From the NCBI RefSeq assembly GCF_018882415.1, contig NZ_JACVOL010000001.1, forward strand, positions 1,775,531 to 1,839,530: DNA of 64,000 nt, given 5' to 3'. The notes under the pieces are model-generated. The model did not search any database, was not told where the DNA came from, and saw only the letters and a list, made by a program, of their open reading frames with translations. Position 1 is the stretch's first letter. Every line of letters begins with the position of its first letter. The translations under genes were made by a program, and so were the position numbers. Source of the DNA: Polynucleobacter sp. 86C-FISCH. Its GTDB lineage: Bacteria > Pseudomonadota > Gammaproteobacteria > Burkholderiales > Burkholderiaceae. This document shows, piece after piece, positions 25,681-28,772 of this stretch.

Positions 25681-26385
25681 TTGGCAAATATATTAGCCAT
25701 CGACACCTCCTCAGCATGGTGTTCGGTGGCTTTATCGTTAGAGGGTCAGGCAGTTCAATTCAGGCATGAAGCTGTCACAGTCGGTGCCAGTCAATTGTTA
25801 TTGCCGTGGATAGAGTCGCTCCTAAGCGATGCGAAATCTTCCCTGACAGACCTAGATGCGATTGCCGTAGGTATCGGTCCTGGTGCGTTTACAGGTGTAC
25901 GTTTAGGTGTGGCCGCTGTTCAGGGCTTGGCTGTATCGCAAAACATTCCGGTAGTGCCGGTATGTAGCCTTGATGCCATCGCTGCCCAACTTTTAGAGTC
26001 AGCAGTATTCAAATCCTCTCATCCTCAGCGATTGATGATTGCGATTGATGCCCGGATGGAAGAGGTCTATTGGGCTTCTTACGATATTCAAGAGAAGCGC
26101 CTGCCAAGTCGCATTGGCGATATTCATTTGACCAAGCCAGAAGATCTGAATTTGGAGGGAGTGCAATTGCTTGCTGGTAGTGCTTTAAATGCCTATAACC
26201 AGAGCCTACCGCAATTCATAGGTCCAATCGATCCAGATGTCTCTATTTCCGCATTGGGTATTTTGAAATGTGCGCAGCAGTCCCTGCAAGACGGGGCGCA
26301 TTGTGAAGTTCGACAACTAGAGCCTCTGTATGTGCGAGATAAGGTGGCATTTACTACCGCTGAACGAGAAGAGGGCAAGAAGTAA
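25681..26385 (+). CDS. tsaB: tRNA threonylcarbamoyladenosine biosynthesis protein TsaB
   Basis: TsaB (YeaZ) is the non-catalytic actin-fold partner of TsaD in making t6A37 on ANN-decoding tRNAs. The 234-residue protein begins MANILAIDTSSAWCSVALSL and has GIGPGAFTGVRLG, the hallmark loop. The start is TTG, with GGGA 8-11 bases upstream; no nearer ATG keeps the ILAIDTS strand. It overlaps rimI by one base (TAATG), forming the common tsaB-rimI pair. Confidence 0.93.
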   Translation: MANILAIDTSSAWCSVALSLEGQAVQFRHEAVTVGASQLLLPWIESLLSDAKSSLTDLDAIAVGIGPGAFTGVRLGVAAVQGLAVSQNIPVVPVCSLDAIAAQLLESAVFKSSHPQRLMIAIDARMEEVYWASYDIQEKRLPSRIGDIHLTKPEDLNLEGVQLLAGSALNAYNQSLPQFIGPIDPDVSISALGILKCAQQSLQDGAHCEVRQLEPLYVRDKVAFTTAEREEGKK

Positions 26386-26915
26386 TGTCGGATCACACAA
26401 CAGCCGAATGTGCTGCAGAACTTTCCTTCTTGCCGATGCAGCAAGCTGACTTAGACGATGTCCTGAAGATCGAATCTGTCTCTCATGTTCATCCTTGGAC
26501 AAAAGGCAACTTTTCCGATTCTCTCGCAGCAGGTCATTGGGCATATTGCATTCGTCCGCAAGCAGATCAAGTGGTGAAGGGTTCCTATTTGGATCCAGCA
26601 GTTCTATGGGCATATTGCATCTTGTTTCCTGCTGTTGATGAATTACATCTCCTTAACATCACTGTTTCCCCACATTTACGTAAGTTAGGCCTGGGCCAAA
26701 GAATGATGGCTGCTATTGAGGGCGTAGCTTTTCAGCAGAAGATGCCGCGAATCATCTTGGAAGTAAGGCCAACCAACGAAGCAGCTTTAGCCCTTTATCA
26801 AAAATTGGGTTACGAGCAAATTGGTATTCGTAAAAATTATTATCCTGCAAGCCCAGAAACTGGTGGACGAGAAGACGCTCTTGTATTGGCTAAATCGATT
26901 AAGCTAGAGGCATGA
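26385..26915 (+). CDS. rimI: Ribosomal protein alanine N-acetyltransferase RimI
   Basis: RimI acetylates the N-terminal alanine of ribosomal protein S18. The 176-residue GNAT protein has HPWTKGNFSDSL near residue 37, the acetyl-CoA loop LRKLGLGQRMM and the C-terminal EVRPTNEAALALYQKLGYEQIGIRKNYY. It is translationally coupled to tsaB upstream and overlaps the following HolD-like gene by four bases (ATGA). A short insertion (QADQVVKGSYLDPAV) separates two near-identical WAYCI segments, a small internal duplication. Confidence 0.92.
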   Translation: MSDHTTAECAAELSFLPMQQADLDDVLKIESVSHVHPWTKGNFSDSLAAGHWAYCIRPQADQVVKGSYLDPAVLWAYCILFPAVDELHLLNITVSPHLRKLGLGQRMMAAIEGVAFQQKMPRIILEVRPTNEAALALYQKLGYEQIGIRKNYYPASPETGGREDALVLAKSIKLEA

Positions 26916-27433
26916 GCAATAATTCAAGCTTCTTAAAAGAAATGGGCATCACCGAGTGGACATCTCGTGATGCGATCCAAGCTCAGCCCGAAGATTCTGT
27001 TGCAGCAAGTTCTCAGGCCGCACCGCAAGAAACGCAAGCCTCGCCAAGGGCGAGCAATGGAATGTGGTGGTTTTTTGGAAATGAACCCCAAGGCGATGCC
27101 AAAATTTTGTTTCAAAACCTCATTCGAGTTCTTGGCTTAGCTAAGAACGAGTGGTCCTGGAAGAGTCCATCAGAGAACTTGGGTCAATTGGTTAACCCCG
27201 GATCACCCTTGGTTGCGATTGCATTTGGTGGACCGGTTACTCAAAAGATAACTGGTGAAAGAGATTCACTGCCGCAGTTGCGCGAAACCGTGCTTGCGCT
27301 AAATACGGGTAATGAGGAAGAAATTCCGGTGATTGCTTCTTTTGAATTAAATCAGGTGCTCACAAAGCCAAAAGAGAAGGCCATGCTTTGGCAGGATTTG
27401 ATGATGGCTCGATCGGTGTTGCAAAACATCTAA
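26912..27433 (+). CDS. Candidate DNA polymerase III psi subunit (HolD-like)
   Basis: The 173-residue protein overlaps rimI by four bases. Its N-terminus (FLKEMGITEWTSRD) resembles the conserved psi peptide LGITQW of Escherichia coli HolD, the part that contacts the clamp loader; its end (PKEKAMLWQDL) resembles the HolD end (ARAALWQQI). Between them are a Pro/Gln/Ala-rich linker (about residues 26-48) and a small alpha/beta-like region (WWFFGNE, PLVAIAFGG, VIASFELNQVL). HolD genes sit beside rimI in gammaproteobacteria. A degenerate uracil-DNA glycosylase is the alternative: it lacks the GEAPG motif and cluster cysteines. The match is from memory. Confidence 0.55.
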   Translation: MSNNSSFLKEMGITEWTSRDAIQAQPEDSVAASSQAAPQETQASPRASNGMWWFFGNEPQGDAKILFQNLIRVLGLAKNEWSWKSPSENLGQLVNPGSPLVAIAFGGPVTQKITGERDSLPQLRETVLALNTGNEEEIPVIASFELNQVLTKPKEKAMLWQDLMMARSVLQNI

Positions 27434-27452: not shown

Positions 27453-28772
27453 TTAGTGCTTATGCTCCCCAATCAGATGCATGGAGTCATATTCCGCCTG
27501 GTTTCTAGCGTGACGCTTGATAACCAACCACATAATTAAACTCACAACTACGCCAAATCCAATGATCACTATTTGAATGGGTACATCCAACCAAATAAGT
27601 AGTGAGTAGATCAATAGCATCATTAACACTGAAATATTTTCATTGAAGTTCTGCACAGCAATGGAGTGACCTGCTGACATGAGTACATGTCCGCGATGTT
27701 GCAGTAGTGCGTTCATTGGCACGACAAAGTAACCAGCTAACCAGCCCACCAGAATTAATAATAAATATGCCGGCAATAAATTGAGGGTAACGTCAAACTT
27801 ACCGAAGCTAAAAATGCTCGTATTAGGTAATAAATCAGAGTTGTAGACTGCCATCACGCAGACCACTAAGCCCATCGCAATTCCGTAAGGCAATACGTTC
27901 AAGGATTTGCGTAAAGGAATGCGCCATGCGGCATAGACGGCGCCACCAGCTACGCCCACGGCTGAGATCGCTTGCAAAATGGCGCCCTGAGACAAATTCA
28001 TATGAAGCGCTACTTGCGCCCACTTAATCACAATAAATTGCAGGGTAGCTCCGGCACCCCAGAATAAAGTGGTGACCGCTAAGGAGATTTGACCAAGGCG
28101 ATCATTCCAAAGTGTTTTAAAGCAAATGGCGAAATCTTTAACCAATTCAATTGGATTTGTCTTTTGAGAAACGTAACGTGCGCCAGTATCTGGAATCTTT
28201 AAGTTGATGAGTGCTGCCACAACATAAATCATCATGATGATCATGATTGCTGATTCAGCAGGAGTATCAATTCCAGTTTCAAAAGTCGGCATATCTAAGG
28301 CAAGCAGACTTTGTGAGACTGTAGTGCTAATCAGAACGCCACCCAAAACCGTGCCCAAAATAATGGATCCAACTGTTAATCCTTCGATCCAGCCGTTGGC
28401 GGCAACCAATTTTTCAGGTGGAAGCAGTTCGGTCAAAATTCCGTACTTTGCAGGGGAGTAAGCGGCAGCGCCCAGACCAACAATGGCATATGACATTAAA
28501 GGGTGACTTCCAAAGAGCATGGCCACGCAGCCGACGAACTTAATCGTGTTCGTAATGAACATGACGTTGCCCTTAGGGCGGGAATCAGCAAAAGCGCCAA
28601 CAAATGCCGCCAAGAGCACGTAGGACAGCACAAAGAACAATTTGAGCAAAGGGGTCATCCAGGCCGGAGCATGGAGCTGGGCCAAGAGGGCGATAGCCGC
28701 TATCAGGAGAGCATTATCAGCAAGCGACGAAAAAAATTGCGCCGCCATAATGATGTAAAAGCTACGGTTCAT
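27453..28772 (-). CDS. lplT: Lysophospholipid transporter LplT
   Basis: LplT is an MFS flippase that moves lysophospholipids across the inner membrane for re-acylation. The 439-residue protein has about twelve hydrophobic segments and the family start MNRSFYIIMAAQFFSSLADNALLIAA, with GAFADSRPKGNVMF after segment two and YSPAKYGILTELLPPEKLVAANGWIE, both characteristic. The usual partner acyltransferase Aas is not adjacent. It is divergent from alr; TAGATT lies six bases before the ATG with no Shine-Dalgarno. Confidence 0.92.
   Translation of the reverse strand: MNRSFYIIMAAQFFSSLADNALLIAAIALLAQLHAPAWMTPLLKLFFVLSYVLLAAFVGAFADSRPKGNVMFITNTIKFVGCVAMLFGSHPLMSYAIVGLGAAAYSPAKYGILTELLPPEKLVAANGWIEGLTVGSIILGTVLGGVLISTTVSQSLLALDMPTFETGIDTPAESAIMIIMMIYVVAALINLKIPDTGARYVSQKTNPIELVKDFAICFKTLWNDRLGQISLAVTTLFWGAGATLQFIVIKWAQVALHMNLSQGAILQAISAVGVAGGAVYAAWRIPLRKSLNVLPYGIAMGLVVCVMAVYNSDLLPNTSIFSFGKFDVTLNLLPAYLLLILVGWLAGYFVVPMNALLQHRGHVLMSAGHSIAVQNFNENISVLMMLLIYSLLIWLDVPIQIVIIGFGVVVSLIMWLVIKRHARNQAEYDSMHLIGEHKH

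Follow-up and report, generated by a model that had tools for sequence, protein, structure and literature searches.

Background

The two described systems closest to the gene considered here are psi (HolD), a subunit of the clamp loader of DNA polymerase III (Pol III), and the family-4 uracil-DNA glycosylases (UDG4). As far as the accessible parts of the respective papers go, psi contacts domain III of DnaX through its N-terminus and also binds chi (HolC), which in turn binds SSB (PMC3290774, PMC3197488, PMC13213242), the N-terminal peptide of psi being required for binding to the clamp loader (PMC3197488). In a 2012 review, available in part, chi is placed in alpha-, beta- and gamma-proteobacteria and psi only in gammas, with the reservation that psi may exist elsewhere in forms too diverged to be detected (PMC3290774), and the occurrence of chi where psi was not found is likewise on record in the available portions of two sources (PMC3290774, PMC3197488). 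The psi protein of Pseudomonas also has a long, disordered N-terminal region and was missed by plain homology search, at least according to excerpts of PMC3197488 and PMC8879598. An attachment of UDG4 to the replication machinery is likewise described in archaea, where a family-4 UDG is found on the sliding clamp PCNA; it differs from the arrangement proposed here in that the enzyme sits on the clamp itself, without psi and without a DnaX peptide (cited in PMC4894655, a source available in part only).

No publication joining psi, HolD, HolC or the clamp loader with a UDG was found in the open-access literature, which was covered by titles and the beginnings of abstracts, and a prior mention is therefore not excluded. 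By term search, uracil is absent from the psi and clamp-loader papers PMC3197488, PMC8879598, PMC13213242 and PMC3331839, and rimI from PMC3197488 and PMC8879598.

The gene described in the following most probably codes for a clamp-loader subunit of Pol III of the psi (HolD) type, descended from the UDG4 that other Burkholderiales have next to rimI, which has lost catalysis while keeping the N-terminal peptide and the fold. Its homology to both families, the chromosomal slot shared with UDG4, the loss of catalytic residues and the presence of the peptide are matters of observation, while its binding partners are inferred. It is a candidate for the missing beta psi.

The gene, its neighbours and its parts

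The window, i.e., the entire stretch of 64,000 nucleotides that was analysed, comes from a genome whose nearest named relatives are Polynucleobacter. At 26912..27433 on the forward strand it carries an ORF with an ATG start that codes for a protein of 173 amino acids, recognised as psi-like by its PF03603 match and as a decayed family-4 UDG by the UDG4 profile match of its core, and with 63 related loci. Its ATG overlaps by 4 nt the stop codon of rimI (26385..26915, +; TIGR01575, E 1.2e-26), upstream of which lies tsaB (25681..26385, +; PF00814, E 2.2e-28), while the convergent neighbour at 27453..28772 (−) codes for what is presumably an LplT-like transporter. An earlier note on this DNA had correctly placed a HolD-like gene here with the 4-nt overlap; its description of the gene as fused into the tsaB-rimI operon is wrong, as the ORF is separate and merely overlaps rimI. 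At the 30 best-scoring UDG4 loci of the window's order a tsaB homologue is present in 27 cases and a homologue of the LplT-like transporter in seven, the latter within flanks of 1.5 kb only. The earlier note also places the psi gene of Pseudomonas beside rimI.

Three parts can be distinguished in the protein: a psi-type N-terminal peptide, LKEMGITEW (residues 8-16; 26933..26959, +), which aligns with the N-terminal peptide of UDG4 and is presumed, without binding data, to be the docking site for DnaX domain III; a variable linker rich in Pro, Gln, Ala and Ser (residues 17-48; 26960..27055, +); and a core domain with the UDG4/psi fold but without catalytic and Fe-S residues (residues 49-173; 27056..27430, +). 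Near the end of the core, MLWQDL (residues 158-163; 27383..27400, +) is, according to the profile alignments, the counterpart both of KAWEDL following the HP motif in UDG4 and of LWQQI in psi. All three sequence features pointed out in the earlier note were thus recovered, namely MGITEW within the first 20 residues (at 11-16), MLWQDL near the end, and a long Pro/Gln/Ala linker between peptide and core. The linker is predicted by AlphaFold2 to be disordered (pLDDT below 50 at residues 20-43). In an alignment of 64 proteins with 43-92% identity to the window protein the core is conserved and the linker variable, R19 being the only (nearly) invariant column between W16 and W52; L8, which lies outside the search pattern used to find these relatives, is invariant, and the same holds for W160 and D162 in MLWQDL.

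In Pfam, PF03603 (DNA_III_psi) is the single family matched at E <= 1, over residues 2-161 (E 1.6e-4) and profile positions 2-123 of 127, with the peptide aligned to that of psi. However, the score of 22.4 bits exceeds the cut-off of 22.2 by only 0.2 bits, and in a PF03603 search of the whole genome the gene scored 15.7 bits and fell below it, so that membership is marginal. NCBIfam yielded a weak psi match in the N-terminus (0.023). A second PF03603 match in the same genome was set aside because it contains five stop codons.

The AlphaFold2 model computed from the 64-row alignment has a mean pLDDT of 81, with values of 82-97 per ten-residue block from residue 51 onwards. Among the best 50 of 638 Foldseek matches in the PDB, all 33 chains at E <= 1e-3 are family-4 UDG or UdgX (probability 1.00), followed by E. 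coli psi (1em8_B at 1.3e-3 and 3sxu_B at 1.4e-3, probability 1.00), and the next family appears only at E 0.065 with a probability of 0.25. The comparison of a predicted structure with HolD proposed in the earlier note thus returned E. coli psi as one of only two families clearly matched among these 50. With VIA-align, Sulfolobus UDG4 (4zbx) gave Z 11.8 (rmsd 2.7, 123 aligned residues; range across family-4 UDG and UdgX, 9.5-11.8) and psi (3sxu_B) Z 8.3 (rmsd 3.4, 96 aligned), the same residues of the model being matched in both. Thymine-DNA glycosylase scored at most Z 7.2 and the remaining proteins at most about 6.9, which puts psi only 1-2 Z units above other UDG-superfamily and unrelated rows (Z 6.2-7.2); psi is therefore the weaker structural match. 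The family profile alone, searched against the PDB, found UDG4 only at E 2.1-2.3, behind chance matches.

Compared with E. coli psi (HolD; PF03603; 1EM8, 3SXU, peptide in 3GLI), the protein has in common a peptide of the type L..MGIT.W, a single core domain of the same fold, the end motif LWQ, the neighbour rimI, and a HolC in the genome (PF04364, E 3.6e-29). In contrast, its linker is longer, its core is nearer to UDG4, and its gene lies downstream and not upstream of rimI. With UDG4 (TIGR00758; 4ZBX, 1UI0, 1L9G) and UdgX it shares fold and profile, and the UDG4s of its relatives occupy the same locus and carry a similar peptide; unlike these, it lacks the catalytic Glu and His and the cysteines presumed to be Fe-S ligands. 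The HolD-like identity put forward in the earlier note is thus supported by the PF03603 match, the peptide, the fold, the rimI adjacency and the presence of HolC.

Kinship of the core with family-4 uracil-DNA glycosylases

In its C-terminal part the protein gives a weak match to TIGR00758 (UDG_fam4; 9.2e-4, 19 bits), which does not meet the cut-off of 125.3. Profile comparisons with hhalign, for which all E-values are per single comparison, are clearer. The Polynucleobacter core matches 59 UDG4 cores (60 loci minus one at a contig edge) at 98.7% (E 2.6e-16) and 30 psi cores at 69.8% (E 4.1e-5), with unrelated or reversed controls at no more than 0.6%, and the full-length proteins match 43 UDG4s at 99.3% (E 8.7e-21) over 175 columns with the N-terminal peptides mutually aligned. 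The outcome named in the earlier note as a refutation, a UDG family without any HolD signal, was therefore only half met, the UDG signal being strong but the HolD signal being present too; both occur in one protein because the two families are homologous. Likewise, the suggestion of a psi subunit hidden by sequence drift stands as far as psi is concerned but is incomplete, since what occupies the slot is a family-4 UDG in decayed form, whereas the relatives have an intact one with a similar peptide there.

Gene order was read at 140 UDG4 loci, which come from one search in the window's order and one in its class, each contributing its 30 best-scoring loci and a further 40 sampled along the ranking; the labels Burkholderiales, beta and gamma for the genomes of these relatives rest on kinship to the window and are otherwise presumed. 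In the order, rimI lies directly upstream of UDG4 in 67/70 loci, as in the window, and is out of reach in three. In the class, it lies downstream in 56/70 (adjacent in 55) and was not found in 14. It is also the next gene downstream in 38 of 42 loci that code for psi, for psi-type proteins or for UDG4s with a psi peptide. As the rimI profile was built from beta matches, a missing rimI may simply be a miss. None of the 27 UDG4s from other classes adjoins rimI, and among 41 weak UDG-like matches only two do, the psi-type L184 and L186.

These data bear on the possibility that the gene is an inherited gamma-type psi which shares a common psi ancestor and has merely drifted, instead of going back to a separate demotion of a beta UDG4. 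Although its PF03603 match would fit such a history, the core is far nearer to UDG4 than to psi, the gene follows rimI as nearly all UDG4s read in its order do, in contrast to psi and to most UDG4s of the class, which precede it, and genera of the same family (G119, G158, G194; the first two among the order loci read) have a UDG4 over the cut-off. In a tree with four Polynucleobacter rows these group with beta UDG4 with a support of 79/93 (not starred), and in a tree of 77 rows with many long branches Polynucleobacter again falls with the beta UDG4s, while psi joins those of the gammas. However, the AU test does not reject a single clade of Polynucleobacter, psi and intermediates (p 0.595), the tree constrained to that clade being 4.1 log units better. 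Nor does it reject a placement of Polynucleobacter with gamma UDG4 (p 0.357), and for five psi intermediates both a gamma (p 0.617) and a beta placement (p 0.756) remain admissible. Since the AU tests reject no placement, the number of demotions is unresolved by the trees; gene order and the UDG4s of same-family genera favour a separate demotion in Polynucleobacter, and inheritance of a drifted psi is considered unlikely.

Two psi-peptide UDG4s, L104 and L106, are nearest to psi in the 77-row tree, on long branches, and have lower UDG4-model scores; they could possibly represent early stages of demotion.

The N-terminal peptide

The 63 related loci were found with six search patterns, one of which was KEMGITEW. 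That MGITEW occurs in 63/63 is largely by construction, because 55 of these proteins contain no other search pattern and were found only through it. For the same reason, synonymous codon variation in MGITEW was dropped as a proof of selection. The peptide is, however, also present in all nine relatives free of this bias, i.e., eight with another pattern and that of the congener G076, which was found through the UDG4 model, and to this extent its conservation in orthologues, on which the earlier note had made its reading depend, is confirmed.

For UDG4 proteins, which were found by their core and not by their peptide, the motif [LIM]-x(2,3)-[MLIFA]-[GEDNM]-[ILVMF]-x(2,3)-W was sought in front of the core. 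With gamma spacing and a limit of 110 residues most beta proteins are missed; in the form used here, two or three residues are allowed before the Trp and the search extends over the entire upstream frame. As the motif was fitted after the sequences had been seen, shuffles and the 27 proteins of other classes serve as controls. It occurs in 125 of the 140 UDG4s (shuffles about 1%): in the order, in 60 of the 67 linked to rimI (shuffles 1.4%) and in one of the remaining three; in the class, in 64/70 (shuffles about 0.9%). It is absent from 27/27 UDG4s of other classes and present in 2/41 weak UDG-like matches, L184 and L186. The number of residues before the Trp is mostly three in the order and two in the class. 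As the reading frames were delimited by stop codons only, a small number of matches precede the true start, e.g., in L073, where the real peptide lies elsewhere. At E <= 1, PF03603 matches 12 out of 43 UDG4s taken from order and class, the best at 6.1e-5, and none of the 27 from other classes. The 43 were chosen by hand from the 60 loci, 17 being omitted, including L067, L069 (which has an insert) and L110 (without the Trp), and are thus not a random sample.

The peptide can evidently outlive the enzyme, since nine out of 11 further proteins of the order that are linked to rimI and decayed retain it. Those 11 (L193-L197, L207, L213-L217) belong to five other family groups (f4, f19, f42, f44, f49), score weakly and lack some of the Fe-S or catalytic residues of UDG; they are possible further cases of psi-like demotion.

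In the absence of binding data, it could be argued that the protein is a decayed UDG4 whose peptide contacts something other than DnaX and which has no role at the clamp loader. The peptide's similarity to psi peptides in the PDB is indeed not significant: the 25-residue N-terminus gave no phmmer match there, and with a profile built from 18 UDG4 peptides the psi peptides 3gli_O and 9oyg_J ranked near the top but only at E 0.24-0.27, after a deoxyribosyltransferase (E 0.19) that is unrelated; its invariance in Polynucleobacter is, as stated, partly built into the search. Against this stand the nine relatives found without need of the peptide, all of which keep it despite the loss of catalysis, its retention in the other decayed proteins of the order, and the restriction of PF03603 matches to UDG4s of order and class as opposed to the 27 controls, which together make a binding partner other than DnaX improbable.

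If the protein is a psi-type subunit, residues 8-16 would attach it to domain III of DnaX, with the flexible linker bridging the distance to the core, and the core would hold HolC and HolC in turn SSB, whereby the protein would tie the clamp loader to the SSB-coated lagging strand. In the relatives, a UDG4 that still looks active might do the same job and would bring uracil repair onto the clamp loader.

The 27 UDG4s of other proteobacterial classes (L224-L251 without L243), which lie away from rimI, have the N-terminal consensus YLREIGV.TP, with the Gly in 27/27 and no Trp; HolC is present in 144/150 genomes of the phylum sample concerned. Judged by sequence alone, the docking peptide could predate the form with Trp and be more widespread than it. 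Two loci, L069 and L296, have a long in-frame insert in the linker between peptide and UDG core, presumably resembling a REP-associated transposase.

Probable common origin of psi and family-4 uracil-DNA glycosylases

A relation confined to the peptide, which UDG4 and psi would then have acquired by fusion to unrelated alpha/beta cores, could be inferred from psi cores of a single order, that of genome G337, which match UDG4 at only 20.9% over 19 columns (reversed controls at most 2.8%). However, with nine divergent intermediates added, all 39 psi-type cores match UDG4 at 97.1% (E 5.7e-11, 104 columns), and the cores of the nine intermediates alone, taken without the peptide, match UDG4 at 98.7% and psi at 97.9%, with reversed and unrelated controls at no more than 9.5%; a fusion of the peptide alone is thus very hard to uphold. 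Some of the intermediates retain pieces of the UDG signature, such as the His-Pro in L101, L184 and L186. The latter two, from two genomes of one family (f218) in an order where psi replaces UDG4, are psi-type proteins with His-Pro and without a PF03603 match at E <= 0.001.

That psi in general is a demoted UDG4 is an inference from these comparisons. On balance, though with less assurance than for the Polynucleobacter gene itself, it seems probable that many beta- and gamma-proteobacteria have, in the place of psi, a catalytically intact UDG4 that docks on DnaX through a peptide of psi type, and hence uracil excision in the replisome, and that the psi proteins of E. coli and Polynucleobacter are inactive relics of such an enzyme, perhaps demoted separately, the binding again being inferred. 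This would offer an origin for psi, a subunit of unclear ancestry, and, if true, would mean that the clamp loader of many proteobacteria carries a base-excision enzyme.

Loss of catalytic and Fe-S residues

All of the 140 UDG4s read keep the first Cys pair, the Gly-Glu-x-Pro of motif A, an Asn, the last Cys and the His-Pro, while the third Cys column holds Cys in 128 and Ser in 12; the roles of these residues in Fe-S binding and catalysis are presumed. Of the 64 Polynucleobacter-type proteins, 54 have no Cys and none has four. That the protein might still be a DNA glycosylase with altered chemistry, for which its UDG4 fold and the conservation of the motif A Gly in 64/64 and Pro in 62/64 could be adduced, deserves hardly any credence given that the catalytic His column holds Glu or Asp and the adjoining Pro column Leu or Phe in 64/64, that the motif A Glu is replaced by Asn, Ser, Ala, Thr or Asp in at least 59/64, that the window protein contains no Cys and no His at all, and that the genome retains another UDG-superfamily gene.

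Distribution of UDG4, psi and HolC

In a sample of 200 genomes of the order, 193 are matched by the UDG4 model at E <= 0.001, weak paralogues included, and 167 exceed its cut-off; no match at E <= 0.001 occurs in the window's genome (G000) or in its congeners G031 and G076. In the class, PF03603 matched 10/185 genomes, and in three of them it fell on the N-terminus of a UDG4 that exceeds its own cut-off; in the order of G337 it identified psi in 43 of 79 genomes. None of the 49 psi genomes (seven from the class and 43 from the order of G337, with G337 in both) has a UDG4 over the cut-off.

HolC was found in 156/185 genomes of the class and in 144/150 of a phylum sample. Of the 136 class genomes with a UDG4 over the cut-off, 126 have HolC and 10 have no HolC match; in 26 of the 156 HolC genomes, the window's included, PF03603 finds no psi and no UDG4 passes the cut-off, and three of the seven psi genomes of the class lack a HolC match. 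These HolC-only, UDG4-only and psi-only genomes weaken a simple pairing with HolC, and the underlying table of HolC and UDG4 (126, 10, 30, 19) is uncorrected for kinship. Of 27 pairs of UDG4 and HolC located on one contig, 20 are no more than 30 kb apart, a figure that depends on the contiguity of the assemblies and was not used as evidence.
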